This document shows, in pieces, positions 5,935 to 62,770 of a stretch of DNA of 64,000 bases. A model generated the notes under the pieces. That model was not told the origin of the DNA and ran no database searches. It saw nothing but the letters and a program-made list of their open reading frames with translations. Within the stretch, counting starts at the first letter, position 1; every line of letters starts with the position of its first letter. The DNA is from Archivesica marissinica (taxonomy: Eukaryota > Mollusca > Bivalvia > Venerida > Vesicomyidae): assembly GCA_014843695.1 (NCBI GenBank), contig CM026398.1, forward strand, positions 19,752,683 to 19,816,682. Direction: 5' to 3'. The position numbers and the translations under genes are program-made.

Positions 5935-6405
5935 CCCTTTGCCTACATAGAGATTTAACCCTTTCCCTCATAGAAGCACCTCTTGACGCCATTACCAATG
6001 CGACATACATTGACAATGTAGTAGCCAAACCAATGTTCATAAACCCTTTCCCTCATAGAAGCACCTCTTGACGCCATTACCAACATGACATACATTGACA
6101 ATGTAGTAGCCAAACCAATGTTCATAATAAAGGCCAGAATCTCATGTAGTCCCAGTAAATGGTTGTCGTTTGTATTGAGATATAAGTATATTAACCTAAA
6201 TCTCTATGAAGTCCCAGTGATATCTATGGAGGTGGGATAGATATGGCGACTACTTATCCACTGCATGATAGCTAAATGGCTGTCGTTTGTATTGAGATAT
6301 AATAGTATATTAACCTAAATCTCTATGAAGGAAAGGGTTAAATGGCTGTTGTTTGTATGGAGATATAATAGTATATTAACCTAAATCTCTATGAAGGAAT
6401 GGGTT
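5935..6405 (-). mobile_element. MITE family 2 cluster, partly duplicated
   Basis: Several overlapping copies of the TTAA-CCCTTTCC MITE. The end carrying GAAGCACCTCTTGACGCC is present twice, about 87 bp apart (near 5,965 and 6,052). The other end (CCTAAATCTCTATGAAGG) recurs near 6,195, 6,310 and 6,378. Intact single copies are at 33,389-33,628 and 48,705-48,949. Confidence 0.75.
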
Positions 6406-7479
6406 AAGCAAATATAAACTACTATATATATCCACACTTACAATAGATACACATCCATTTAGCTATCAATCACTGTCAATCAGCATATCTGCCCTCACCT
6501 CCATATCACTACTGGGACTACATGAGATTCGGGTGGGTGGGGGGACTATGAATGTTGGTTAATACTACATTGTCCCAGGTCCTTCCTACACAACGTGTAC
6601 ATATGGCATAGCTCACAGCAGACAAATGGGTCAAGGACTTTGCTGACGGAAGCCGCGCTATCGGAACTGTAGAAGCCGCGTGACTCAGTATGAGTGTCAA
6701 CACACTAATTTACCTACTTAGCAAGATAGCAATGCTCGGTGCTGGCGATGGCGGACAGCAGGCCATTGTTTTTAGCCAACTCCTTCAAGGAGACGTGCCT
6801 TCTAGATAGCGAGAAACCCCAGCGAAGAAACCGGAATCATTATTGCTGCTGTGAGCTGACAAATGGTGGAGGATGTGGCCCTAAAAGGGACCGCCTTTGA
6901 AAGAAAGGATACAGGACTTGTCACCCTGGGAAGAATGAGTTTTAATAGTATGTTCCGGAAAATGATTTTGGTATCAACAATAAGATAAAAGCATGACCTT
7001 TTAATAAATATTCATCAGCAGAAAAGTTGTATTTTCATGTAAATTTGGCTCCAACTTTACGAGAATATATCTAGGCTTATGGTTGTTGGCAAATTTTACA
7101 GACATCTTCGTTCATTGGCCGAAGCCGGAGTTAAGGCGTTTATTTTTGGACAGACTCCGCCCTCTCCGATCGCATTTGACAGGCAGATTAGGATAATTAC
7201 ACTGTTGAGAAAATATTCGATGATGCTTGACCGCTCATCGCCCCGGGTCAAAGTTGACCCACTTCGCATTTTCACCAAGAGTCAAAATTGCATCTTTACT
7301 GATTTTCATGAGTCAAACCCCGGGAGCTCGGGTCAAATGAACGCCCTGGGAGTGAAAGAAGATTGTTGAGCAACCATCCATATACCTTACTGTCTTTGAG
7401 CCATCAACATGTTAGTTTAACCCCTCCAGCTAGGAGTAAACTTATTCTGTTAAATTATTTGTGACATGTTACATGTATC

Positions 7480-8505: not shown

Positions 8506-10048
8506 TAGACCACTAGACAGTAAACCTATTGTTCTCCTAGCTACTTTATGGGTGTGGACTGACGTACAGATATCGTCTAACCCTATTATAATTGTTCTGT
8601 AGACGGACGGATGTATGGTTATCGCCTAACCCTATTATAATTGTCCTGTAGACGGACGGAGGTACGGATATCGCCTAACCCTATTATAATTGTCCTGTAG
8701 ACGGACGGAGGTACGGATATCGCCTAACCCTATTATAATTGTCCTGTAGACGGACTGACGTACAGATATCGCCTAACCCTATTATAATTGTTCTGTAGAT
8801 GGACGGATGTATGGTTATCGCCTAACCCTATTATAATTGTCCTGTAGACGGACGGAGGTACGGATATCGCCTAACCCTATTATAATTGTTCTGTAGACGG
8901 ACGGATGTATGGTTATCGCCTAACCCTATTATAATTGTCCTGTAGACGGACGGATGTATGGTTATCGCCTAACCCTATTATAATTGTCCTGTAGACGGAC
9001 GGAGGTACGGATATCGCCTAACCCTATTATAATTGTTCTGTAGACGGACGGATGTATGGTTATCGCCTAACCCTATTATAATTGTCCTGTAGACGGACGG
9101 ATGTATGGTTATCGCCTAACCCTATTATAATTGTCCTGTAGACGGACGGATGTATGGTTATTGCCTAACCCTATTATAATTGTCCTGTAGACGGACGGAT
9201 GTATGGTTATCGCCTAACCCTATTATAATTGTCCTGTAGACGGACGGATGTATGGTTATCGCCTAACCCTATTATAATTGTCCTGTAGACGGACTGACGT
9301 ACAGATATCGTCTAACCCTATTATAATTGTTCTGTAGATGGACGGATGTATGGTTATTGCCTAACCCTATTATAATTGTTCTGTAGATGGACGCATGTAT
9401 GGATATCGCCTAACCCTATTATAATTGTCCTGTAGACGGACGGAGGTACGGATATCGCCTAACCCTATTATAATTGTCCTGTAGACGGACGGATGTATGG
9501 TTATTGCCTAACCCTATTATAATTGTCCTGTAGACGGACGGATGTATGGTTATCGCCTAACCCTATTATAATTGTCCTGTAGACGGACGGATGTATGGTT
9601 ATTGCCTAACCCTATTATAATTGTCCTGTAGACGGACGGATGTATGGTTATCGCCTAACCCTATTATAATTGTTCTGTAGACGGACGGATGTATGGTTAT
9701 CGCCTAACCCTATTATAATTGTTCTGTAGACGGACGGATGTATGGTTATCGCCTAACCCTATTATAATTGTCCTGTAGACGGACGGATGTATGGTTATCG
9801 CCTAACCCTATTATAATTGTCCTGTAGACGGACTGACGTACAGATATCGTCTAACCCTATTATAATTGTTCTGTAGACGGACGGATGTATGGTTATTGCC
9901 TAACCCTATTATAATTGTTCTGTAGATGGACGCATGTATGGATATCGCCTAACCCTATTATAATTGTCCTGTAGACGGACGGAGGTACGGATATCGCCTA
10001 ACCCTATTATAATTGTCCTGTAGGCGGACGGATGTATGGATATCGATC
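8506..10048. repeat. 49-bp minisatellite, about 30 copies
   Basis: The monomer period is exactly 49 bp (9,181 to 9,230, for example). Consensus pieces: TGTCCTGTAGACGGACGGA, TGTATGGTTATCGCC and TAACCCTATTATAAT. Variants (TTCTG/TCCTG, GGACTGACGTACAGATATCG, GGAGGTACGGATATCG) recur in the same order at 9,290-9,480 and 9,830-10,020. This indicates amplification of multi-monomer blocks. Confidence 0.95.
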
Positions 10049-16967: not shown

Positions 16968-17210
16968 TCAGACGGATCTGTAGTCCAGTGGTTAACACGT
17001 TGGACTGGTAATCCAGGGATCGCAGGTTCAATCCCCCTGTTTGACCCTAATAAAATTACACTGTGCACGTAAAAGAACTAGAGGAGACTCTGGAATGGGT
17101 CTCTGTCTGTATCATTGCACTATCCTCCAACAATCTAAATTGAATAATCTATTCAGGGGGAGTCACTCACATGGGCAACCGGTAGCGACGATAAATAAAC
17201 GTAAAATACA
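16968..17210 (+). mobile_element. SINE family A with tRNA-like head
   Basis: The head reads GGATCTGTAGTCCAGTGGTT, then ACACGTTGGACTGGTAATCC, then GGTTCAATCC. It has an A-box-like TAGTCCAGTGG and a B-box-like GGTTCAATCC, as expected of a pol III promoter. The body shows an internal deletion after CCTGTTTGACCC and resumes at GTGCACGTAAAAGAACTAG. The tail GGTAGCGACGATAAATAAAC is intact. It is a SINE, not a functional tRNA gene, because the head continues into the conserved SINE body. Confidence 0.87.
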
Positions 17211-17691: not shown

Positions 17692-18778
17692 TCGAGGTCA
17701 GATGTACTAACATAGCGGTGATGCTTACATGCACCCACAAACAACAACACACATGCAGCTCGAGGTCAGATGTATTAACATAGCGGTGATGCTTACATGC
17801 AGCTCGAGGTCAGATGTACTAACATAGCGGTGATGCTTACATGCAGCTCCAGGTCAGATGTACTAACATAGCGGTGATGCTTACATGCAGCTCCAGGTCA
17901 GATGTACTAACATAGCGGTGATGCTTACATACAGCTCGAGGTCAGATGTACTAACATAGCGGTGATGCTTACATACAGCTCCAGGTCAGATGTACTAACA
18001 TAGCGGTGATGCTTACATACAGCTCCAGGTCAGATGTACTAACATAGCGGTGATGTTTACATGCTGCTCCAGGTCAGATGTACTAACATAGCGGTGATGC
18101 TTACATACAGCTCCAGGTCAGATGTACTAACATAGCGGTGATGCTTACATGCAGCTCCAGGTCAGATGTACTAACATAGCGGTGATGCTTACATACAGCT
18201 CCAGGTCAGATGTACTAACATAGCGGTGATGCTTACATGTACATACAGCTCCAGGTCAGATGTACTAACATAGCAGTGATGCTTACATGTACATACAGCT
18301 CCAGGTCAGATGTACTAACATAGCGGTGATGCTTACATGCAGCTCCAGGTCAGATGTACTAACATAGCGGTGATGCTTACATGCAGCTCCAGGTCAGATG
18401 TACTAACATAGCGGTGATGCTTACATGCTGCTCCAGGTCAGATGTACTAACATAGCGGTGATGTTTACATGCTGCTCCATGTCAGATGTACTAACATAGC
18501 GGTGATGCTTACATGCAGCTCCAGGTGAGATGTACTAACATAGCGGTGATGCTTACATGCTGCTCCAGGTCAGATGTACTAACATAGCGGTGATGTTTAC
18601 ATGCTGCTCCATGTCAGATGTACTAACATAGCGGTGATGCTTACATGCAGCTCGAGGTCAGATGTACTAACATAGCGGTGATGCTTACATACAGCTCCAG
18701 GTCAGATGTACTAACATAGCGGTGATGTTTACATGCTGCTCCAGGTCAGATGTACTAACATAGCGGTGATGCAATGCC
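17692..18778. repeat. 44-bp minisatellite, about 24 copies
   Basis: Unit GGTCAGATGTACTAACATAG then CGGTGATGCTTACATGCAGC then TCCA, period 44 (17,821 to 17,865). Variants (TACAG/TGCAG/TGCTG, CTCCA/CTCGA, an extra ATGTAC) are shared by neighbouring copies, showing local block duplication. Confidence 0.95.
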
Positions 18779-19950: not shown

Positions 19951-20809
19951 TTTAACAAGTTATTACCTCAATACACACCTAATTTGACATCTTAGGACAG
20001 GTGGTATCTTTATTGAGGTATTCTCTTGGGCAGGTTTGACTGTATTAATCAGTGTTATCATTATATGGTGCTTAGTTTTAAATATTATCATGATGGAAAA
20101 ATTACCTCCCTTACATTACGTTACTTATTTCCTGCATCAACAATGATGTTAATGAATACATATGAACATAATTAGATCTTCTATAATGTTGTAAAAGTTA
20201 TTTTTATATAATAATATGCCTGTTGTAAGCTAACTGACAAGCTACATACCGGTAGATTACAAGCTACATACCAGTAGATTTCCAACAGTTTTAAAGAAAA
20301 AGTAGGAAAATTGGCATGTTACAAATTAATTCATAAAAAACCCCGAAGTCATTAGCATACCAATTGTATGTAATGTTTTACTTAGGCATACATTGAACTA
20401 ATGATATGCAACATTTGAAGAAATTCTATTATTGTGAGAAAATAAATATTTGAAATTATATCCTAAATATTACATGAAAAATACAAAAAATCTCCCCAAA
20501 ATCAAGTATGCGAACATGGAAAATTCATGATTTAGGATTGTTGTATTTTACTTTTGTCGAGAAACTGAGAAATTATTGGCCGAAATGGAAAATAGGCATG
20601 TTATAAAAAAATTAAATTAAAAGTCATTAGCATATCAATTTTATTTCATATGTTGGTTAGTAATACATAGTACTAGTGATGTACCAAGTATGAACAAATT
20701 CTATTATTGTAAACTTTTTTTACAAAACTGCCTTTAAGTTTATCTATCAAAATGTTCAAAACTTCCTCTAGGTATTTTTAGTCTGGTTGTATAACTCCTA
20801 TATGAACAT
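19951..20809. other. AT-rich spacer left of the 4.3-kb transposon
   Basis: Near 20,000-20,045 the phrase GGGCAGGTTTGACTGTAT resembles the right end of the Tc1-like MITE. GAAATTCTATTATTGT recurs near 20,420 and 20,698 in a loose ~280-base duplication. No genes seen. Confidence 0.45.
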
Positions 20810-21184
20810 TTTGCAGGAAAAAAGTAAAGGAAAAATAATTCTTAGTTTTTCTGAATCAGTACACCCCATAGCACATCAGGAAAAAAATCCCCATGAATTG
20901 GGCTTGGGGAATGTTTTTCCCAGCACTTTGAAATTTCGGCTCCAAGACCCAATCGAAGATCCATCAAGATGAGGGGTAGGGCTAACAAATTTAAGTCTCT
21001 AGTCACTTCTGGTCTAGGTATGATAATGCAAATTGGCATGAGGTTACAAAAATGATTACTCTTCACTGGGGTCAATGGACCAAATTGATGTGATGACGTA
21101 ATCATGACGAAATCCAAGATGGCGTCCATTTTGGCGGGAAAAACGAAAATATTGGCTACCAGTCAACTCGCGTCATTCTGACTC
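20810..21184 (+). repeat. Left terminal inverted repeat
   Basis: Runs from GCAGGAAAAAAGTAAAGG to CGTCATTCTGACT. Its inner part, facing the interior, carries TGACGTAA (21,094-21,101), CCAAGATGGCG (21,114-21,124) and TTTGGCGGGAAA (21,130-21,141). Confidence 0.88.
21094..21141 (+). promoter_or_regulatory. Promoter-like cluster in left TIR (CRE, YY1, E2F motifs)
   Basis: TGACGTAA matches a CREB/ATF site, CCAAGATGGCG the YY1 core and TTTGGCGGGAAA the classic E2F site. The three lie within 48 bases. The mirrored right TIR keeps the YY1 and E2F motifs unchanged but has TGATGTAA in place of the first. Motif recognition only; activity is inferred. Confidence 0.5.
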
Positions 21185-21219
21185 ATTGTTTACTGTTTTT
21201 GTTTCATGTAGGCTACCAA

Positions 21220-24200
21220 TTATTCTTGGATATCGACTCTGACAGTGTTTTTACAGCTTACTCCATGACATCCTCCACAAGCCTCAACACACTGGAGTCC
21301 ATGCTTGAAACAGGTACACAAGTTTGTACCACATTGGTTGGGATTTTGGCTTTTACACTTGCACCTAATGAATTTCAACACACTCTCCGGTGCTACGCCC
21401 ATGTCCGTCATTAATGGTACAAGTCCGGAACGATCATGTTGCCAACCCCATGAGCATGGATCAAGCACTTCAGTATCCAAGTTCATCCATTGAATAGTTT
21501 GTAGAAATACCCTGAGGTTGTGGAAATGGGCGGCACGTACTGTCGGAGGCATTCATTGCGGTTCCAAGATGTTTGACTGTGCAATCATCGTCTGGTACTT
21601 GTGAAAGCGAATGGTCGTCAGAGTCCTTTCCTTGCAATATTCACCAAACAACAAAGTGAATAAATCTATGCCAAGCTTCCCGACTGTGTCCTGAGTTTCA
21701 GCTGAATAGAAATTGTCGGCAATCGCTTGAATTGAGCGGTCTTTTGCTATGTCCGAATGTTGAAGATGTTGTGTCACATCCACTCCATGCATGTATGAAC
21801 AGAATGTTTTTTTTAATGACTGAATCAACCTTTGATGACACATCCTTTACGGAATGAATTGTGGAAGGCCCCACTAGTTTTCGCCTTGTTCCTCCGATGA
21901 CCTTATGAACGTATATGTTCGCCATATCCTCTTTCCAGTGATGCAGAAACAAATGTCCGTGTCATTTGCGATTACTTCAACAGTTTGCTGGTTCTTGGCA
22001 TAATCTAGTGTGGTAGAGACTATTAGTGTATCGGCATCTGCTTGTGCTTGCTTTATGATATGACCATTTGCTTCCAAGTGATCAGTGAGCATAGCAATGA
22101 AGCCAACTTTATTTGCAATGTTAGCAAAGAACGCTTCCTGATCCTTGTACCTACGACGTGACGGGTTCACTTCTATTGTAGCGGCGGGAAGTCGATCTGA
22201 TTTGCGTCGGTGGTGTTCGTGATCCTTAGTTGAAAACTCAGGATATCCATCGAATACAACAATACACTGACCGAATTGATGTGTGAGATATGACGAGTAC
22301 TGCTCGAAGACTTCCTGGTATGTGTTGTGTTTCCACCGTATGTAGTGAAGAAGCCACCCGCCGTCGACAACACGCATTTGCTCACCAGATGGCCTAGTAT
22401 CTGCTACATCCTTATACAGTGCATTAGCTAATTCAGACTTCACCGGCTTCCTCATGAAATTGTCCTTGAACAAGGATGGAGGACTCACACACATTTCCCA
22501 TTGGAAATATGGCTCCATGTTCTCGCTGATTCTTTGTGAGATGGCCGAACATCGACTGAGTAGAATAGCCGGATCAATGTGCAGGGTTTTCTTTCGTCCT
22601 ACCCTTACTCCGGGTTGGAGATCTTGCAGTCTTAATTTGCTCAGATCGCTTAATCTTTGCGCCGTTATATGACACGGAGTCTATCTTTGACTGTAATTTA
22701 GAGCCAACTTCCTCGGTGATATCACAGTTGATACCATCCCCTTGTTCCGCTGTCAAACCGGTTGACAATGAACGCAAGTCACAACCGTTGCTGACTAATG
22801 GATTGTGATCAACAAACCAGTCTAACAGTTTATCAAGATCAGTGAGGTTGCGGTCTTTTCGAGCAATGCTGAGATCTACGTGTTGTTCGGACGTCCATAT
22901 CTTCTTCTGCGAGCGAGTTGTCATTGCATCATGGATTGCCACACAGATTGGTAAGGTGAACACCCATTGGTAACGGACAGATTCAGTCAGACCTCGTCCA
23001 TGTGTCAAACCACCACGACTTTTTAGCGAACACATGAGCGTTTGCTCTATCACCAAGTCTGACTAGAGTCCGTTAAAACAGTGTTCTGTTCTTACCACAG
23101 CATGAGCGCCTTCTATGTACTTCTGATATAGCAAGGGATGCTGTTCTGGTAGCTTGGCCATATTTTGCACATAAAGCCTTGCACTTTTTGCGTAGTGAAT
23201 ATGTCCTGTTGCTGCAAATAAGTTCAGAAACTCACTACATACTCTCAAATGTCTGTTCCAGTCCTTTAGTCTCTCACATGCTACAAAGTCTTCTATTTTC
23301 CGAATATATAATTCAGTAATTGGATCCATAATTTTGCTGTTCTAGACTGTGATGACAATGATATTTTCAATTCTTCAATGCATTTATCTAACAAGACAAG
23401 TGGCTCCGAGTTTACAATGTCATCACAACGAGTTTCAGCATCGGAATTCAATACGTTACCGAGAAGCTTTTGCAAGGCCTCCACATCCTTTGTAGTAAGA
23501 CTGGACTGATATTTCTCATTGATACCACCGTCATAATCATCATTCTCGTCACGATGTGCCTCGCAGTCCGGTATTATCTGTTCCAGTAATTTGGTGGTCA
23601 GGCATGCGTCGAGAAGATAGAGAACCCGTAGTGCCCGTGCAATGGCTTTGCCAGACAATATGTGCAAAATAGCATTGGGGCCAAATATCTGACCCAGAGC
23701 TTCATATATTCCAGATCCTCGCATCGTATGAAAGATGCTACTGATTGCGCTCATTAGTGTATGGAACCCACCCAGTCTAATCACAAGTTTGTTAAGCTGT
23801 TTGGTGGCAGCAATTTCAACAGCTTTAATGAAGAGCGGTTGGTCAAATGTTACTGATGTACTTGGCAGTTTCAGTTTCGGCACTTGGTCTTGTATGTAAG
23901 ACAACGTGGAGTAGATGCAGGTTTCATCACTAGGGTTCAGGTCTATGATTGGAAGCATCAACACTTCGTCCGCACTAATTCCATCTGTGTCGTTTTGATA
24001 GACACAGTGCATGAATCCAGACCAATTTGTCCAATCCGGGCTAGGAGTCATTTTGGTTGCAAGTACTTTGGCAGAACTCCAGAGCAGCTTTGAATAATAT
24101 GACACAGGTGGGATAGTGAATGGTAATATTGTTTCAAATATCGCATTGAACTTGAATGTTGACAAGGCGGGGATGGCTGGTGTGACATAAAGAATAATTG

Positions 24201-24780
24201 GTATGCCTTTATCGTAAGTAAGATCGGAAATGTTGACCCTTGCCATACGTTTTACACGCTGGTCGGTAATTTGCTGGCTACTTCGGCGTTGGTACCATGC
24301 AATAATACCCATACCGTGAAAGGTTCCGGTCCCGTCCAAGGTGCGTATGTTTGAATCTGCAATGTACTGTCCTAACGTCGGGAATGGCGGTGGGGACAAC
24401 GATTGCAATGTTTGCTGCTGAAGAATGGACTGCTTGAAAAGCTGAACTTCATTGTAGGTGATGGACAAGCCAAATGAGGAAAGTTCTTCTGTGAGCCACT
24501 TTGATCCAAAGACGTGATCTAACTCTATACCAAGACCGAACAGCAGTGGTGAAATTACAGAGTTCGGACGTGCGGCTTGTGTGATGGCTTGCCCAATTAC
24601 GTCACACTTTAGCTCATCTTTAATCAGTGTTTCCAGGAACACACGTAAACTAGGAGTCAAAAAGTCTCCGCATTCTTTCAGGCTGGTATAGAATATATTT
24701 CTCAAGTCAGAATGACGTGAGCTGACTGGTAACCAATATTTTCGTTTTTCCCGCCAAAATGGACGCCATCTTGGATTTCG
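21220..24780 (-). pseudogene. Broken transposon protein: unknown N-region, FEN/XPG-like nuclease, Cys cluster
   Basis: Read right to left, about 1,160 codons. The N-terminal ~470 residues (24,705-23,293) show LDGTGTFHGMG (residues ~123-133), TFDQPL (~286-291), RLGGFHTLMS (~310-319) and GKAIARALR (~352-360). From memory these recur in uncharacterised, often multicopy, proteins of cnidarians, molluscs and fish. Next come DLVIEQTLM and GGLTHGRG (23,056 onward). A FEN/XPG-like region follows, with VVFDGYPEFSTKDHEHHRR, QAQADADTLIV, ANDTDI and HAWSGCDTTSSTFG, comparable to the acidic FDG, EAEA, SxDSD and GCD motifs. The C-terminus is a cysteine cluster, CKCKSQNPNQCG to CGGCHGVSC, like a CXC/CRC zinc motif. 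Lesions: frameshifts near 23,310, 22,577, 21,950 and 21,740; stops at 23,063 (TAG) and 21,553 (TGA, possibly from CGA by CpG decay). The frame is open upstream to 24,780, inside the right TIR, with no ATG, so the real start or a 5' exon is unknown. Confidence 0.78.
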
Positions 24781-25072
24781 TCATGATTACATCATCACAT
24801 CAATTTGCTCCATTGACCCCAGGGAAGAGTAATCACCTTTGTAACCTCCTGCCAATTTCCATTATCATACCTAGACCAGAAGTGACTAGAGACTTAAATT
24901 TGTTAGTCCTACCCCCTATCTTGATGGATCTTCGATTGGGTCCGAAATTTCAAAGTGCTTGGAAAAAAATTACCCAAGCCCAATTCATGGGGATTTTTTT
25001 TCTGAGGCACTATGGGGTGTACTGATTCAGAAAAACTAAGAATTATTTTTCCTTTACTTTTTTCCCCGCAAA
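24706..25072 (-). repeat. Right terminal inverted repeat, promoter side
   Basis: Inverted copy of 20,810-21,184, ending ACTTTTTTCCCCGC. On the coding (minus) strand it keeps CCAAGATGGCG (24,774-24,764) and TTTGGCGGGAAA (24,758-24,747). These lie about 40-70 bases upstream of the point where the protein frame leaves the TIR, so this TIR is the natural promoter of the element. Confidence 0.85.
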
Positions 25073-25407
25073 TTCTCTTCTGCACCCTGACTATTTTGTC
25101 AGTGGAGATATTCTTCACTACCTGATAACTCAATAATTATTGTAACCTGTTAGGCAAACACACAAATGGTTATTATTAACACTTATCAATCATGTAAATG
25201 ACCATATCCCAAGCCATATGGTGTAATTAAAACAGGATGCCAAGCAATCAGTGTCAATATAGCACCTAATCTTTCAAATTCCATGTAGTCTGGACAAACA
25301 AATATTTGTCTGATACACACATTTTCAAAGTTTTACACCTGGAACTTGGAGCTGACAAAATCCTTTTGATGTTGCCTGGTCAGTCATCCAGTAGTTAATG
25401 CGTTGGT

Positions 25408-25910: not shown

Positions 25911-26025
25911 TTTTATATAATATTAACAGTATCTCAGTGATGTACATTACATGTACACACATTAATTTCATTGCTGTTATGATTTGTTAGGGAGAGACAG
26001 GAAGACAGCCAAATGACAAAAGACT

Positions 26026-26888
26026 TAACCCTTTCCTTCATAGAGATTTAGGTTCATATACTATCCATATCTCCATACAAACCACAGCCATTAACCCTTT
26101 CCTTCATAGAGATTTAGTTTCATATACTATTATATCTCCATACAAACCACAGCCATTAATTAACCCTTTCCTTCATAGAGATTTAGGTTACTATACTATT
26201 ATATCTTCATACAAACGACGGCCATTAATCCTTTCCTTCATAGAGATTTAGGTTAATATACTATTATACCTCCATACAAACGACAGCCATTAACCCTTTC
26301 CTTCATAGAGATTTAGGTTAATATACTATTATACCTCCATACAAACGACAGTCATTTAGCTATCATGCAGTGGATAAGTAGTGGCCATATCTATCCCACA
26401 TCTATAGATATTACTGGGACTACATAGAGATTTAGGTTAATATACTATTATACCTCCATACAAACGACAGTCATTTAGCTATCATGCAGTGGATAAGTAG
26501 TAGTACCTAATATCCCACCTGCATAGTTACTGGGACTACATGAGATTCTGGCGTTTATTATGAACATTGGTTTGGCTACTGCATTATCAGTGTATGTCGT
26601 ATTGGTAATGGCGTCAATAGGTGCATCTATGAGGGAAAAGGTTAACCCTTTCTTTCATAGAGGCGTAGGTTAATATTCTATTATATCTCCATACAAACCA
26701 CAGCCATTTATTTAGCTATCATGCAGTGGATAAGTAGTCGCCATATCTATCCCACATCCATAGATATAACTGCAACTACATGAGATTCTGGCCTTTATTA
26801 TGAACATTGGTTTGGCTACTACATTGTCAATAAATGTCGTATTGGTATTGGCGTCAAGAGGTGCTTCTATGAGGGAAAGGGGTTAAAA
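26026..26888 (+). mobile_element. MITE family 2, tandem/nested cluster
   Basis: The left end, TTAACCCTTTCCTTCATAG plus AGATTTAGGTTAATATACTA, is repeated about six times at 26,030-26,345 with ~60-bp spacing. Longer copies follow, with the interior GCAGTGGATAAGTAGT, ACTGGGACTACATGAGATTC and GGTTTGGCTACTACATTGTC. The cluster closes with CTATGAGGGAAAGGGGTTAA near 26,868-26,887. It looks like end amplification and repeated insertion of one MITE family. Confidence 0.78.
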
Positions 26889-29450: not shown

Positions 29451-29934
29451 CACTATATTGATGCATTTCGTACATTCTGATAACATGATAAATGTATTAC
29501 AAATGTTATATATTACCTTTGTTTGGCATGGACATTTTGAATGTTTTATATGCCAACAACACACACACACCGTCAGTAATTATTGTTACCTGACATATTG
29601 TAAAGTAATCCACTAAACACTAAAATAAATCCCTTTTCACAGATTACATATTTATATTTTTCAACACAATTCCTAGAAATACAACATCCTTCACACATGT
29701 ATATCCTCAGAATTATATGAACACTAGAAAGCACACCTGGATATATAATACATGAAACATAAAACATAAAAACATCGCCTCAAACGAGATGCAATCAAAA
29801 TGAGGGGAGTGAGTTAATCCCAGTGAGATGAAGATTAAGATTACACCATCATGATTGTTAAGCCATTATTCATGAATTAGTTTGAGATTCATCCCCAACC
29901 ACCTCTCCCTGTCATTCCAATTATGAACCATGAT
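29451..29934. other. Spacer, nothing recognised
   Basis: Short AT-rich stretch between the duplicated SINE-like unit and the 29/30-bp array; includes a brief (AC)n near 29,562. Confidence 0.4.
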
Positions 29935-32900
29935 CTCCTGTTCTTACAGTACATGTATGTGTACCTACTGTTCTTACAGTACATGTATGTGTACCTACTG
30001 TTCTTACAGTACATGTATGTGTACCTACTGTTCTTACAGTGCATGTATGTGACCTACTGTTCTTACAGTACATGTATGTGTACCTATTGTTCTTACAGTA
30101 CATGTATGTATACCTACTGTTCTTACAGTACATGTATGTGTACCTACTGTTCTTACAGTACATGTATGTGTACCTACTGTTCTTACAGTACATGTATGTG
30201 ACCTACTGTTCTTACAGTATATGTATGTGTATCTACTGTTCTTACAGTACATGTATGTGTACCTACTGATCTTACAGTGCATGTATGTGACCTACTGTTC
30301 TTACAGTGCATGTATGTGACCTACTGTTCTTACAGTACATGTATGTGTACCTACTGTTCCAGTGCATGTATGTGACCTACTGTTCTTACAGTACATGTAT
30401 GTGACCTACTGTTCTTACAGTACATGTATGTGTACCTACTGTTCATACAGTACATGTATGTGTACCTACTGTTCTTACAGTATATGTATGTGTATCTACT
30501 GTTCTTACAGTACATGTATGTGTACCTACTGATCTTACAGTGCATGTATGTGACCTACTGTTCTTACAGTGCATGTATGTGACCTACTGTTCTTACAGTA
30601 CATGTATGTGTACCTACTGTTCCAGTGCATGTATGTGACCTACTGTTCTTACAGTACATGTATGTGACCTACTGTTCTTACAGTACATGTATGTGTACCT
30701 ACTGTTCATACAGTACATGTATGTGTACCTACTGTTCTTACAGTATATGTATGTGTATCTACTGTTCTTACAGTACATGTATGTGTACCTACTGATCTTA
30801 CAGTGCATGTATGTGACCTACTGTTCTTACAGTGCATGTATGTGACCTACTGTTCTTACAGTACATGTATGTGTACCTACTGTTCCAGTGCATGTATGTG
30901 ACCTACTGTTCTTACAGTACATGTATGTGACCTATTGTTCTTACAGTACATGTGTGTGCCTACTGTTCTTACAGTACATGTATGTGTACCTACTGTTCTT
31001 ACAGTACATGTATATGACCTACTGTTCTCACAGTACATGTATGTGACCTACTGTTTCTTACAGTATATACAGTACATGTATGTGTACCTACTGTTTCTTA
31101 CAGTATATACAGTATATGTATGTGACCTACTGTTTCTTACAGTATATACAGTACATGTATGTGTACCTACTGTTTCTTACAGTATATACAGTATATGTAT
31201 GTGACCTACTGTTTCTTACAGTATATACAGTACATGTATATGACCTACTGTTCTCACAGTACATGTATGTGACCTACTGTTCTCACAGTACATGTATATG
31301 ACCTACTGTTCTTACAGTACATGTATGTGTACCTACTGTTCTTACAGTACATGTATATGACCTACTGTTCTCACAGTACATGTATATGACATACTGTTTC
31401 TTACAGTATATATAGTACATGTATGTGACTACTGTTTCTTACAGTATATACAGTACATGTATGTGACCTACTGTTTCTTACAGTATATACAGTACATGTA
31501 TGTGACCTACTGTTTCTTACAGTATATACAGTACATGTATATGACCTACTGTTCTCACAGTACATGTATATGACCTACTGTTCTTACAGTACATGTATGT
31601 GACCTACTGTTCTCAAAGTACATGTGTGACCTACTGTTCTCACAGTACATGTATGTGACCTACTGTTCTCACAGTACATGTATATGACCTACTGTTCTCA
31701 CAGTACATGTATATGACCTACTGTTCTCACAGTACATGTATGTGACCTACTGTTCTTACAGTACATGTATGTGACCTACTGTTCTCACAGTACATGTATA
31801 TGACCTACTGTTCTCACAGTACATGTGTGACCTACTGTTCTCACAGTACATGTATGTGTACCTACTGTTCTTACAGTACATGTATGTGACCTACTGTTCT
31901 CACAGTGCATGTATGTGACCTACTGTTCTTACAGTACATGTATGTGATCTACTGTTCTTACAGTACATGTATGTGTACCTACTGTTCTTACAGTGCATGT
32001 ATGTGACCTACTGTTCTTACAGTACATGTATGTGACCTACTGTTCTTACAGTACGTGTATGTGACCTACTGTTCTTACAGTACATGTATGTGACCTACTG
32101 TTCTTACAGTACATGTATGTGATCTACTGTTCTTACAGTACATGTATGTGACCTACTGTTCTTACAGTGCATGTATGACCTACTGTTCTTACAGTACATG
32201 TTTGTGACCTACTGTTCTTACAGTACATGTATGTGACCTACTGTTCTTACAGTACATGTATGTGACCTACTGTTCTTACAGTACATGTATGTGATCTACT
32301 ATTCTTACAGTACATGTATGTGTACCTACTGTTTCTTACAGTACATGTATGTGATCTACTATTCTTACAGTACATGTATGTGACCTACTGTTTCTTACAG
32401 TGCATGTATGTGATCTACTATTCTTACAGTATATGTATGTGTACCTACTGTTTCTTACAGTACATGTATGTGTACCTACTGTTCTTACAGTACATGTATG
32501 TGTACCTACTGTTCTTACAGTACATGTATGTGTACCTACTGTTCTTACAGTACATGTATGTGTACCTACTGTTCTTACAGTACATGTATGGATCTACTAT
32601 TCTTACAGTACATGTATGTGTACCTACTGTTTCTTACAGTACATGTATGTGATCTACTATTCTTACAGTACATGTATGTGACCTACTGTTTCTTACAGTG
32701 CATGTATGTGACCTACTGTTCTTACAGTACATGTATGTGTACCTACTGTTCTTACAGTACATGTATGTGTACCTACTGTTCTTACAGTACATGTATGTGT
32801 ACCTACTGTTCTTACAGTACATGTATGTGTACCTACTGTTCTTACAGTACATGTATGTGATCTACTATTCTTACAGTACATGTATGTGACCTACTGTTTC

Positions 32901-33220
32901 TTACAGTGCATGTATGTGACCTACTGTTCTTACAGTACATGTATGTGTACCTACTGTTCTTACAGTACATGTATGTGTACCTACTGTTCTTACAGTACAT
33001 GTATGTGTACCTACTGTTCTTACAGTACATGTATGTGATCTGAATGAATGAATGGTGTTTTACGGCGCATCGACATCTACGGTCATGTAGCGTGCATTAA
33101 AGTTATGTTTATTGTCGAGTGTATGAAATAAAATTCTATATAAGTATATGCATGTATGTGACCTACTGTTCTTACAGTACATGTATGTGACCTACTATTC
33201 TTACAGTACATGTATGTGAA
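29935..33220. repeat. 29/30-bp minisatellite, about 105 copies
   Basis: Unit ACCTACTGTTCTTACAGTAC then ATGTATGTGT (30 bp) or the GT-less 29-bp form. Submotifs vary (TTCT, TTTCT with TATATACAG, TCTCAC, TGCATG). The dyad TACTGT-TTCT-ACAGTA and the palindrome TACATGTA sit in almost every monomer. A 263-bp block is repeated in tandem (30,351 and 30,614 start equivalent positions). Unrelated sequence interrupts the array at about 33,040-33,150. Open frames on both strands (YVYLLFLQYM and CKNSRYTYMY types) are artefacts. Confidence 0.95.
33040..33150. other. Non-monomer insert inside the 29/30-bp array
   Basis: Begins GAATGAATGAATGG and holds GTTTTACGGCGCATCGACAT. The phrase ACGGCGCATC also occurs near 37,124, so this may be a small dispersed element that landed in the array. 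Two or three monomers resume after it. Confidence 0.55.
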
Positions 33221-34504: not shown

Positions 34505-35505
34505 ACCGTCCATACTCGCCTATAAGACGACTTTTTTACCACCAGATTATGGTCTCAAAGTGGCTTCCCGTCCATACTCGCCTATAAGACAAGTTTTTTA
34601 CCACCAGATTATGGTCTCAAAGTGGCGTCCCGTCCATATTTGCCTATAAGACAAGTTTTTTACCACCAGATTATGGTCTCAAAGTGGCTTCCCGTCCATA
34701 TTCGCCTATAAGACAAGTTTTTTACCACCAGATTATGGTCTCAAAGTGGCTTCCCGTCCATATTCGCCTATAAGACAAGTTTTTTACCACCAGATTATGG
34801 CCTCAAAGTGGCTTCCCATCCATACTCGCCTATAAAGCAAGTTTTTTACCACCAGATTATGGCCTCAAAGTGGCTTCCCGTCCATACTCGCCTATAAAGC
34901 AAGTTTTTTACCACCAGATTATGGTCTCAAAGTGGCTTCCCGTCCATATTCGCCTATAAGACAAGTTTTTTACCACCAGATTATGGTCTCAAAGTGGCTT
35001 CCCGTCCATATTCGCCTATAAGACAAGTTTTTTACCACCAGATTATGGCCTCAAAGTGGCTTCCCATCCATACTCGCCTATAAAGCAAGTTTTTTACCAC
35101 CAGATTATGGCCTCAAAGTGGCTTCCCGTCCATACTCGCCTATAAGACAAGTTTTTTACCACCAGATTATGGCCTCAAGGTGGCTTCCTGTCCATACTCG
35201 CCTATAAGACAAGTTTTTTACCACCAGATTATGGTCTCAAAGTGGCTTCCTGTTCATACTCGCCTATATGACAAGTTTTTTACCACCAGATTATGGTCTC
35301 AAAGTGGCTTCCCGTCCATACTCACCTATAAGACAAGTTATTTAACACCAGATTATGGCCTCAAAGTGGCTTCCCGTCAATACTCGCCTATAAGACGAGT
35401 TATTTAACACCAGATTATGGCCTCAAAGTGGCTTCCCGTCAATACTCGCCTATAAGACGAGTTATTTAACACCAGATTATGGCCTCAAAGTGGCTTCCTA
35501 TCTTA
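34505..35505. repeat. 62-bp minisatellite, ~16 copies
   Basis: Period 62 (34,561, 34,623, 34,685). Unit: CCCGTCCATACTCGCCTATA, AGACAAGTTTTTTACCACCA, GATTATGGTCTCAAAGTGGC. The last three copies share TTATTTAACACCAG, so variants spread locally. Confidence 0.95.
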
Positions 35506-49339: not shown

Positions 49340-51310
49340 ATCCCTGCTAACACTGTGACATATATCCCTGCTAACACTGTGACTAATGTACAACCTGCTA
49401 ACACCGTGACTAATGTACAACCTGCTAACACTGTGACTAATGTACAACCAGCTAACACTGTGACTAATGTACAACCTGCTAACACTGTGACTAATGTACA
49501 ACCTGCTAACACTGTGACTAATGTACACAACCTGCTAACACTGTGACTAATGTACAACCTGCTAACACTGTGACTAATGTACAACCTGCTAACACTGTGA
49601 CTAATGTACAACCTGCTAACACTGTGACTAATGTACACAACCAGCTAACACCGTGACTAATATACAACCTGCTAACACTGTGACTAATGTACACAACCTG
49701 CTAACACTGTGACTAATGTACAACCTGCTAACACTGTGACTAATGTACAACCTGCTAACACTGTGACTAATGTACAACCTGCTAACACTGTGACTAATGT
49801 ACACAACCAGCTAACACCGTGACTAATATACAACCTGCTAACACTGTGACTAATGTACACAACCTGCTAACACTGTGACTAATGTACAACCTGCTAACAC
49901 TGTGACTAATGTACAACCTGCTAACACTGTGACTAATGTACAACCTGCTAACACTGTGACTAATGTACACAACCAGCTAACACCGTGACTAATATACAAC
50001 CTGCTAACACTGTGACTAATGTACAACCTGCTAACACTGTGACTAATGTACAACCTGCTAACACTGTGACTAATGTACAACCTGCTAACACTGTGACTAA
50101 TGTACAACCTGCTAACACTGTGACTAATGTACACAACCAGCTAACACCGTGACTAATATACAACCTGCTAACACTGTGACTAATGTACAACCTGCTAACA
50201 CTGTGACTAATGTACAACCTGCTAACACTGTGACTAATGTACAACCTGCTAACACTGTGACTAATGTACCACCTGCTAACACTGTGACTAATGTACAACC
50301 AGCTAACACTGTGACTAATGTACAACCAGCTAACACTGTGCGTCTGTGACTAATGTACAACCTGCTAACACTGTGACTAATGTACAACCAGCTAACACTG
50401 TGACTAATGTACACAACCTGCTAACACTGTGACTAATGTACACAACCAGCTAACACCGTGACTAATGTACAACCTGCTAACACTGTGACTAATGTACAAC
50501 CAGCTAACACTGTGACTAATGTACAACCTGCTAACACTGTGACTAATGTACAACCTGCTAACACTGTGACTAATGTACAACCTGCTAACACTGTGACTAA
50601 TGTACAACCTGCTAACACTGTGACTAATGTACAACCAGCTAACACTGTGACTAATGTACAACCTGCTAACACTGACTAATGTACAACCTGCTAACACTGT
50701 GACTAATGTACAACCTGCTAACACTGTGACTAATGTACAACCAGCTAACACTGTGACTAATGTACAACCTGCTAACACTGTGACTAATGTACAACCTGCT
50801 AACACTGTGACTAATGTACAACGCTAACTGTGATATGTACAACCTGCTAACACGGACTAATGTACAACTGCTAACTGTGACTAATGTACAACCTGCTAAC
50901 ACTTGACTAATTACAACCTGCTAACACTGGACTAATGGTTGTGTTGAACCTGCTAACACTGGACTAATGTACAACCTGCTAACACTGTGACTAATGTACA
51001 CACTAACACTGTGACTATGTACAGCCTGCTAACACTGTGACTAATGTACAGCCTGTAACACTGTGACTAATGTACAACCTGCTAACACTGTGACTAATGT
51101 ACAACCGCTAACACTGTGACTAATGTACAACCAGCTAACACTGTGACTAATGTACAACCTGCTAACACTGTGACTAATGTACAACCTGCTAACACTGTGA
51201 CTAATGTACAACCTGCTAACACTGTGACTAATGTACAACCTGCTAACACTGTGACTAATGTACACAACCTGCTAACACTGTGACTAATGTACAACCTGCT
51301 AACGGAATGT
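49340..51310. repeat. 27-bp minisatellite, ~73 copies, in DCP1 intron 1
   Basis: Unit GTGACTAATGTACAACCTGC then TAACACT (27 bp; 29 with ACACAACC). The variant CCAGCTAACACCGTGACTAA recurs at 49,641, 49,807, 49,973 and 50,137, a higher-order period of 164-166 bp. Between about 50,815 and 51,060 many monomers carry single-base losses. Because 27 is a multiple of three, many frames are open (TNVQPANTV); these are not genes. Confidence 0.95.
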
Positions 51311-54944: not shown

Positions 54945-56330
54945 CAAAAATAGGCTAGTGTACTGTAATGCAAATGAATGTGATGTTTGTGTCTGTCTAA
55001 TAGTACTGTAATGCAAATGCATGTGGTGTTTGTGTTTGTCTAATAGTACTGTAATGCAAATGAATGTGGTGTTTGTGTCTGTCTAATAGTACTGTAATGC
55101 AAATGAATGTGGTGTTTGTGTCTGTCTAATAGTACTGTAATGCAAATGAATGTGGTGTTTGTGTCTGTCTAATAGTGTACTGTAATGCAAATGAATGTGG
55201 TGTTTGTGTCTGTCTAATAGTGTACTGTAATGCAAATGAATGTGGTATTTAGTGTCTGTCTAATAGTGTACTGTAATGCAAATGAATGTGGTGTTTAGTG
55301 TCTGTCTAATAGTGTACTGTAATGCAAATGAATGTGGTGTTTAGTGTCTGTCTAATAGTGTACTGTAATGCAAATGAATGTGGTATTTAGTGTCTGTCTA
55401 ATAGTGTACTGTAATGCAAATGAATGTGGTGCTTGTGTCTGTCTAATAGTGTACTGTAATGCAGATGAATGTGGTGTTTGTGTCTGTCTAATAGTGTACT
55501 GTCAGCAAATGAATGTGGTGTTTGTGTCTGTCTAATAATGTACTGTAATGCAAATGAATGTGGTATTTAGTGTCTGTCTAATAGTGTACTGTAATGCAAA
55601 TGAATGTGGTGTTTGTGTCTGTCTAATAATAGTGTACTGTAATGCAAATGAATGTGGTGTTTGTGTCTGTCTAATAATAGTGTACTGTAATGCAAATGAA
55701 TGTGGTGTTGTGTCTGTCTGCTAATAGTGTACTGTAATGCAAATGAATGTGGTGTTTGTGTCTGTCTGCTAATAGTGTACTGTAATGCAAATGAATGTGG
55801 TGTTTGTGTCTGTCTAATAATAGTGTACTGTAATGCAGATGAATGTGGTGTTTGTGTCTGTTTAATAGTGTACTGTCATGCACATGAATGTGGTATTTAG
55901 TGTCTGTCTAATAGTGTACTGTAATGCAAATGAATGTGGTGGTGGTGTCTGTCTAATAGTGTACTGTAATGCAAATGAATGTGGTGTTTGTGTCTGTCTA
56001 ATAATAGTGTACTGTAATGCAAATGAATGTGGTGTAACTGGTGTTTGTGTCTGTCTAATAGTGTACTGTAATGCAAATGAATGTGGTGTTTGTTTCTGTC
56101 TAATAATAGTGTACTGTAATGCAAATGAATGTGGTGTAATGGTGTTTGTGTCTGTCTAATAGTGTACTGTAATGCAAATGAATGTGGTGTTTGTGTCTGT
56201 CTAATAGTGTACTGTAATGCAAATGAATGTGGTGTTTGTTCTGTCTAATAATAGTGTACTGTAATGCAAATGAATGTGGTGTTTGTGTCTGTCTAATTGT
56301 GTACTGTAATGCAAATGAATGTGGTGGTTG
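54945..56330. repeat. ~45-bp minisatellite with an Oct motif in each unit, ~31 copies
   Basis: Unit AGTGTACTGTAATGCAAATG then AATGTGGTGTTTGTGTCTGT then CTAAT, 42-48 bp with small indels. Nearly every unit holds ATGCAAAT, the POU/Oct octamer, usually as TAATGCAAATGAA. Lies in DCP1 intron 2. Open frames (NANECGVCVCLI) are repeat artefacts. Confidence 0.93.
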
Positions 56331-56402
56331 TATGGAAATATAATATTATATTAACCTAAATCTCTTAAATTGTCAAACTTTTCCCTGAATGAAAGGGTTA
56401 AG
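56331..56402. mobile_element. MITE family 2 end fragment
   Basis: TATGGAAATATAATATTATA, TTAACCTAAATCTCT and ending GAATGAAAGGGTTAA. It abuts the Oct-motif array without a gap. Confidence 0.65.
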
Positions 56403-60153: not shown

Positions 60154-61672
60154 CCCTTTATATTCGGGATACACATCCGTGTGTAATTACCCTTTCCATT
60201 CGGGATACACATTCATGTGTATTTTTGAGAGGTGACATGTACACAGCTGATTTTTGTCAAATTTGTCGTAAATAATAGCTCTTCCGGTTTCGTTTTCACT
60301 GCGCAACGTTTTGCGCAGTTAGACAGGTACTCGCCGCGATTTTTAAAACAGCCAGGAAGTGAGAAAAAAAGCATTTTTCGAAGCGATATTTTCCGAAATT
60401 TCGATCGTAGAATAATAATGGCAGATGGATCTGACTTGATTAGCGATGGGAGCAATGTAGAAGTGGATTTTGATGAGACTATCGACGATTTTGTTGGGAA
60501 TGGGCATGATAGAGGCCGTTTAATCTTTGACGAGATTGATCGGTACCGTGATCCATTGTTAGATGGTTTTTTTGCGTCGGATTCGGAGGAGGACGATGAC
60601 GATTTTGATGGGTTTCACGAGCAATGGGTCCAGGATGGGTTTACCACTCGTATGAAACGCCGATTCACCATGCATCCAGGTGCTTCAGAACAACACCCTG
60701 AAGAAGCCCAACCCATGCATTATTTTGACATCCTTTGGGGGCAGGAACTCTGGAAACACCTGGTAACAGAGACCAACCATTATGCCGAACAGGAAAGGAC
60801 CAGAAACCCGCCTCCACCTTTTGCACCGAAGTGGACGCCTGTTGATGTGCCTACCACAGTGGCTGTACCCAGTGCCAGGTACCAGTGTGTACCAAGTGTG
60901 TTGCTGAACACATACTTAGTGCAGTCTGACAGTGCTTAGTGCAGTCTGACAGTGCTTACGACAAACAGACAACAATCAAACAGATGTAGACATGTATAGT
61001 TCAGGAACAAATCAAAAATACCAACAACAAAACAATACAATTTTTAAAAAAATTCAATGATATTTTAAGTTTTAAATAAAATAATTTCATTTGAACACTA
61101 ACCCAGCTGTTATATATTATAAAATATGGAATACCAGCAGAATAAACAGAAGAAGACCTGTGTATATAGTGTGAATACCAGTGTAGTGTTTTGTGTTGTT
61201 TTTTTATCTCAGAAGTTCTTTCCAAATTGGAGAGGCAGTGGTTTTATTCAAAAATTCATATCTTTGGAAATATATGGAATAATTTAATTTTTTTGGGGTG
61301 CTTTTGTAATGCTTAAAATTGTGCATAATCCATACATTGGATTATATTCTTTATGTTGGATGGTAATACCAGTAATAAAGCCTGAAGACGGGAGTAGCAT
61401 TTTCGTTGTGGCCCAAATTTAATTTTACCCAATGTTTTTACTAATATTCCTTTTTATTGTGCATGCCAAATTTTATTATGTTATATGCATGATATGAAGA
61501 ATTTTATTACCTTTCCAAAAATATATAGTTATATGGGTGTTTATGAAGCATAATAAACAGCATATGCATTTAAATGTAACTACCATCAAAACAAAAGTGG
61601 ATTAACAGATTTCTGATAAAATGTCCAGATATTCAGAGGTCCTTATCTGAAAGGGGTCCAGAATACAAAGGG
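60154..61672 (+). mobile_element. piggyBac element, internally deleted
   Basis: TTAA lies at 60,150-60,153 and 61,673-61,676. The ends CCCTTTATATTCGGG and CCAGAATACAAAGGG are inverted with two mismatches. Subterminally the left end repeats CCCTTTCCATTCGGGATACA. At 1,519 bp it is shorter than autonomous elements (usually more than 2 kb), and the transposase is cut short. TTAA targets, CCCTTT ends and the protein agree, so assignment to piggyBac is firm. Confidence 0.9.
60418..60939 (+). pseudogene. piggyBac transposase (PGBD-like), N-terminal remnant
   Basis: ATG at 60,418 starts an acidic region, MADGSDLISDGSN and then SDSEEDDDDFDG (~60 residues in). It leads to PMHYFDILWGQELWKHLV and TNHYAEQERTRN, the conserved start of the piggyBac transposase fold (FF...L...I..ETN.YA.Q). 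After KWTPVDVPT the frame leaves the family and stops at 60,939, so the catalytic DDD core is missing; about 173 residues remain of a usual ~550-600. GTGCAGTCTGACAGTGCTTA is nearly duplicated at the stop, probably at a deletion junction. The frame is open upstream to 60,232, but the ATG preceding the acidic region is the typical start. Confidence 0.85.
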
Positions 61673-62524: not shown

Positions 62525-62770
62525 TGTGTGTTTTACGTTTATTTATCGTCGCTACCGGTTGGCCATATGAGCGACACCTCCTGAAGAGATTAGTAATTTT
62601 AGATTTTTGGAGGATAGTGCAATCTTTTTGTAAATGTAAAGCACCGACACGAGACCTCGGTTTAAAGTCCCATCTGAAAGACTGTTAATTTTATTAGGGT
62701 CAGACGGGGGATCGAACCTGTGGTTCCTGGATTACCAGTCCAGCTTGTTACCACTGGACTACAGATCCCT
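62525..62770 (-). mobile_element. SINE family A, inverted
   Basis: Plus order: TTTACGTTTATTTATCGTCG, CACCTCCTGAAGAGATTAG, AGGATAGTGCAATC, ACACGAGACCTCGGTTTAA, GGGGGATCGAACC, GGATTACCAGTCCAGC, ACTGGACTACAGATCC. The CCAGAGTCTCC block is deleted; head and tail are both present. Confidence 0.87.

Follow-up and report, generated by a model that had tools for sequence, protein, structure and literature searches.

At this locus, within the 64,000-nucleotide stretch of Archivesica marissinica DNA analysed here (the window), lies a minus-strand element of 4315 bp (20779..25093), an internally deleted derivative with ends TAGTC...GACTA. TAGTC is read inward at both of these ends (20779 and 25093), and the element is flanked by TTTT on the left (20775..20778) and on the right (25094..25097), a target duplication of 3 bp, or 4 bp in the window copy. 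About 30 bases inside the ends lie the arms of a long inverted repeat, one on the gene's 3' side (20816..21183, plus strand) and one on its 5' side (24705..25065, minus strand), which are 92.7% identical over 368 columns and thus bear out the repeats of about 370 bp described in the initial annotation. The bounds of 20810..25072 given there did capture the element, but its true ends lie slightly further out.

The one long, broken minus-strand frame reported earlier, with its listed motifs, was recovered as seven open pieces running from 24780 to 21220. The first (23293..24780, 495 aa) carries most of the presumed transposase core, including the TFDQPL, RLGGFH and GKAIARALR motifs; its initial part is a read-through of the terminal inverted repeat and its first acidic motif is three residues short. 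This is followed on the same strand by a second core piece (LFAATGHIHYAKSARLY; 23063..23341) and by one bearing the presumed catalytic glutamate (DLVIEQ) and a linker (22574..23062). An EXO1/FEN1-type nuclease occupies two further pieces, part 1 of 268 aa with VVDGG, VVFDGY, ADADT and ANDTD (21874..22680) and part 2 with GCDTTSS (21698..21961), and is separated by another open piece (21553..21846) from the C-terminal piece with a CXC-like cysteine cluster (21220..21552). Relative to a 5657-bp genomic copy (L042), the window copy is about 1.3 kb shorter through an internal deletion, with bases about 421-1716 of that form gone at a junction placed approximately at 24677..24679, and it is without the N-terminal zinc-finger region of the complete gene. 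On account of this missing N-terminus, the loss in the acidic motif and the broken frame, the window copy should not make an active enzyme.

A search of the source genome (1.54 Gb) with the element, in which 33 of 127 candidates were scored, returned 126 matches, many of them partial pieces or stretches from one terminal repeat to the other, with the long matches 94-98% identical. These matches, together with the at least 653 protein relatives of the 495-aa piece, indicate that the frame in the window is not a chance product. Comparison of 33 copies, including the window's own and with the flank extended for six stretches, was a step suggested in the initial annotation, and it both fixed the ends and revealed the 3-bp duplications. 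Copies devoid of terminal repeats had been named there as evidence that would speak against a transposon; both ends were found in 25 of the 33, and the other eight (L016, L029, L032, L033, L035, L039, L040 and L041), in which one end was not recovered within the fetched stretch or is masked by N, were left out of the duplication count. Identical 3-bp flanks are seen in 16 of the 25 copies, whereas 5000 shufflings of the right flanks among copies yielded 2.02 on average and 8 at most; at 1, 2, 4 and 5 bp the flanks are identical in 11, 3, 2 and 0 of the 25 (shuffled means 8.39, 4.13, 0.33 and 0.04). The duplicated triplets differ among copies, and an exact 3-bp duplication is absent from nine of the 25.

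Among the copies are recurrent deletion derivatives. The deletion junction of the window copy is found, give or take a few bases, in nine of the 33 copies (L009, the window copy itself, to L015, L034 and L035), and a second deletion, of L042 bases about 530-1492, is present in 19, at the identical place in 15 and within a few bases in four; different deletions are found in L021 and L046, the sequence of L044 is broken by N, and L042 and L045 are near-complete. Identity to L042, taken over the longest aligned piece of each copy, has a median of 97.7% across the 32 others. The presence of an identical deletion in copies with differing flanks implies that it was the shortened forms that spread, presumably mobilised with protein supplied in trans. 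The three-residue loss in the first acidic motif is shared by the window copy with L010, L021 and L033; the motif is kept in 21 of the 33 copies, substituted in two and without a pattern match in six. Separately, L043 (G000:C4:37113500-37122545) contains a 435-bp internal piece four times in tandem, which may be an assembly error.

Given that several genomes list relatives of the protein as ordinary proteins, one might picture a duplicated host nuclease gene that came to be flanked by inverted repeats by chance. However, dispersed copies with common ends, 3-bp duplications and recurrent deletions are at odds with such an origin and for practical purposes rule it out. The same common ends and duplications uphold the earlier identification of the element as a DNA transposon with terminal inverted repeats.

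An uninterrupted full-length frame is found in none of the 33 copies. The frame of L042 extends for about 1496 codons from the first ATG with a single TAG interruption and contains the longest open stretch, of 1238 codons. Searching proteins with the 495-aa window piece, another step put forward in the initial annotation, gave the above-mentioned relatives (at least 653 at E <= 0.001, with 7999 candidates scored, of which the best 120 were listed). The nuclease half of L042 retrieved 167 proteins; among the best 120 of these, 77 measure 1400-1610 aa, and the species represented include Dysidea avara, Patella caerulea, Littorina saxatilis, Venturia canescens and Acanthoscelides obtectus. With the core of a divergent member as query, 489 proteins were retrieved, the best 120 of which include representatives from Mytilus, Pinctada, Mizuhopecten, Lytechinus, Porites and Bradysia. 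From these, alignments of 31, 78 and 30 relatives were built, picked for length and spread. A complete member encodes a single protein of about 1,500 aa that combines two N-terminal C2HC-like fingers, a presumed DDE core with an all-helical insert, an EXO1/FEN1-type 5' nuclease and a C-terminal cysteine cluster. Some of the relatives are annotated as 'Tesmin/TSO1-like CXC domain-containing protein' and one as '5'-3' exonuclease'. The proposal that uncharacterised animal proteins of this kind derive from transposons gains strength from their being the same protein end to end, as judged from the proteins alone; entries from molluscs, corals, a sponge and insects that are labelled 'uncharacterized' or 'Tesmin/TSO1-like CXC' are probably products of this type of transposon rather than of host genes. 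Scans with two and three short peptide patterns gave 17 matches in viral contigs and 97 in prokaryote genomes, respectively, none of which was confirmed as a relative. One 992-aa relative (P0124) is recorded under a bacterial metagenome-assembled genome, Sedimenticola sp., and probably represents host DNA contaminating a symbiont assembly.

The N-terminal region of the complete protein contains two C2HC-like clusters (positions in L042 frame numbering, in which the first ATG is residue 15). The first comprises C36, C39, H85 and C88, each conserved in 30 of 31 relatives, and the second C127, C130, H190 and C193, conserved in all 31. For the remainder, an AF2 model of residues 330-1509 was computed from 78 sequences (pLDDT 89, pTM 0.75; model numbering plus 329 gives L042 frame numbering), and an AF2 model built from a 681-aa L018 piece as single sequence was set aside for its pLDDT of 31. 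In model numbering, the core consists of two strands (117-128 and 137-148), an insert with short helices that separates them from the third strand (256-263), a helix, a fourth strand (292-296), a helix, a fifth strand (316-320), a helix, a long all-helical stretch and a final helix (557-570). This layout of elements matches that of RNase H-type DDE transposases bearing a helical insertion. D123 and D126 fall in the first strand, D297 (of TFDQPL) follows the fourth strand and E562 (of TDLxIEQ) lies in the last helix, all four of these residues being identical in 78 of 78 relatives. The order of the predicted elements, rather than a fold match, suggests that the core may adopt an RNase H-type DDE transposase fold, in keeping with the earlier suggestion that the N-terminal region holds the transposase. 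The structure prediction which the initial annotation had called for recovered the nuclease fold in the model and, for the core, an element order that fits RNase H. The structure-search lists, filled by nuclease matches, contained no solved transposase for the core, and from this neither the presence nor the absence of the fold follows. Membership in the hAT, P, MuDR, Kolobok or Dada superfamilies was rejected: the C/DxxH pattern between the second D and the E, given as a criterion for these groups in PMC9587614, is present in no more than 11 of the 78 sequences at any column.

The EXO1/FEN1-type nuclease sits in the same protein as the core, and both the predicted fold and the acidic motifs place it in the FEN/XPG/EXO1 family, in agreement with the original reading. 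Pfam XPG_I matches are weak (2 of 31 and 1 of 30 relatives), and the profile of the A4 set, 30 relatives chosen as kin of one that matches DUF6589 (see below), gave no match to EXO1. Unlike EXO1, FEN1 and XPG themselves, the nuclease here follows a presumed transposase core within a larger polypeptide. Further, the acidic motif of FEN1 reads EAEA, and in place of its glutamate pair the nuclease of the element displays D-A-D. The terminal CxC cluster that had been noted after the nuclease proves to be a CXC-like cluster in which nine cysteine columns are conserved in 75-76 of 76 relatives; the C-terminal piece of the window matches Pfam TCR below the cut-off (E 0.091).

All 78 relatives have a complete nuclease active site. 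This, together with the lack of a match between the core and a solved transposase, could be taken to mean that the FEN-like domain itself makes the cuts and that the N-terminal region only binds DNA. We deem this very improbable, however, as the core's acidic residues are equally invariant and occupy the positions seen in RNase H-type transposases; additionally, DDE strand transfer typically leaves a fixed short duplication, such as that observed here.

A link to a known superfamily is hinted at by DUF6589, which we take to be the Academ core in fungi. L042 does not match this family, and the literature found by our search does not name it; weak matches are seen in 7 of 31 relatives and in 12 of 30 in the A4 set, the best relative reaching 26.3 bits where the cut-off is 27. 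These weak matches would agree with an Academ core. Within Academ, the AcademH and AcademX lineages are reportedly due to Kojima in 2020. As described in PMC10045372, AcademX encodes a nuclease and makes target duplications of 3-4 bp, whereas AcademH encodes a helicase and makes duplications of 9-10 bp. The element resembles AcademX in encoding a nuclease together with the transposase and in its 3-bp duplications, and no difference from this lineage was found in a comparison by published features rather than by reference sequence. Further, its length of 5657 bp is close to the mean of 5565 bp for bivalve Academ elements, which are expanded in these animals according to PMC10294476. AcademH, although of the same superfamily if the Academ filing is right, is ruled out by the 3-bp duplications and by the absence from L042 of any helicase family at E <= 1. 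Likeness also extends to Kolobok, a group of DDD/E transposons in which, according to PMC9587614, nucleases or helicases are present. However, Kolobok duplicates TTAA, in contrast to the varying triplets here, and its nucleases have His-Me finger, lambda-exonuclease-like or DEDDh folds as opposed to the EXO1/FEN1 type.

On these features, the element is probably a cut-and-paste DNA transposon of the nuclease-bearing AcademX lineage within the Academ superfamily, present here as a degenerate, non-autonomous copy, and Academ membership by descent may be inferred. Counting against this assignment are the nine of 25 copies that have no exact 3-bp duplication, the short-helix insert separating strands 2 and 3 of the core, and the lack of an EXO1 match for the A4 profile. 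An unlikely alternative, to which we accord a modest probability, is a separate superfamily which gained the nuclease and the 3-bp duplications independently and whose core has no more than a distant kinship with Academ: the filing was made by published features, and the DUF6589 matches are weak and under the curated cut-off. Set against this are the combination of a nuclease with a 3-bp duplication, as published for AcademX in PMC10045372, and the length and abundance in bivalves, which fit Academ as described in PMC10294476. The initial annotation knew of no named superfamily with this architecture. That none has it is not supported, as an architecture that seemed unnamed fits a named transposon lineage. 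In our literature search for a nuclease-bearing Academ element, AcademX was named solely in PMC10045372.

Under the preferred AcademX assignment, the most likely course is that the zinc fingers and the cysteine cluster would bind the long inverted repeats, and the DDE core would free the 3' ends and join them, staggered by 3 bp, to target DNA. At the ends, 5' strands or flaps would be removed by the fused nuclease, with host repair filling the gaps to give the 3-bp duplications, while shortened copies such as that in the window would be moved in trans by the full-length protein. The division of labour between core and nuclease, including the removal of flaps, is likewise presumptive; the catalytic residues of core and nuclease alike are strictly conserved, which suggests that the two activities are both of importance to the element. 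A more specific version, which we regard as tentative and rather doubtful, is that the nuclease is a dedicated second-strand enzyme: the core would free and join the 3' ends only, and the nuclease would cut the 5' strands as flaps, converting what would be a co-integrate into cut-and-paste transposition. In Tn7, the transposase machinery includes the TnsA/TnsB pair, of which TnsA has a restriction-enzyme fold; were this version true, the element would be a eukaryotic functional counterpart of that pair in a single polypeptide, with a FEN fold replacing the restriction-enzyme fold. The family is also of interest as a clean case of a presumed DDE transposase permanently fused to a repair-type flap nuclease, and since both catalytic sets are strictly conserved, it is directly testable which of the two enzymes cuts the second strand.

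Elsewhere in the window, a 236-aa open frame (60229-60939, plus strand) has a short match, below the cut-off (E 0.0029), to DDE_Tnp_1_7, which is presumably piggyBac-type; the frame is probably the N-terminal part of such a transposase. Long minisatellite arrays, whose units measure 27-62 bp, are present at 8571-10045, 17751-18772, 29931-33037, 34506-35498, 49343-51303 and 54956-56331. Two tandem arrays (5957-6407 and 26025-26886) have units, AACCCTTTCC... and CCTCATAGA, which as judged by eye are related and lie on opposite strands. Additionally, two tRNA-like matches (16974-17048, plus strand, and 62696-62768, minus strand), with low bit scores that are over the Rfam gathering score, may be tRNA-derived repeats.
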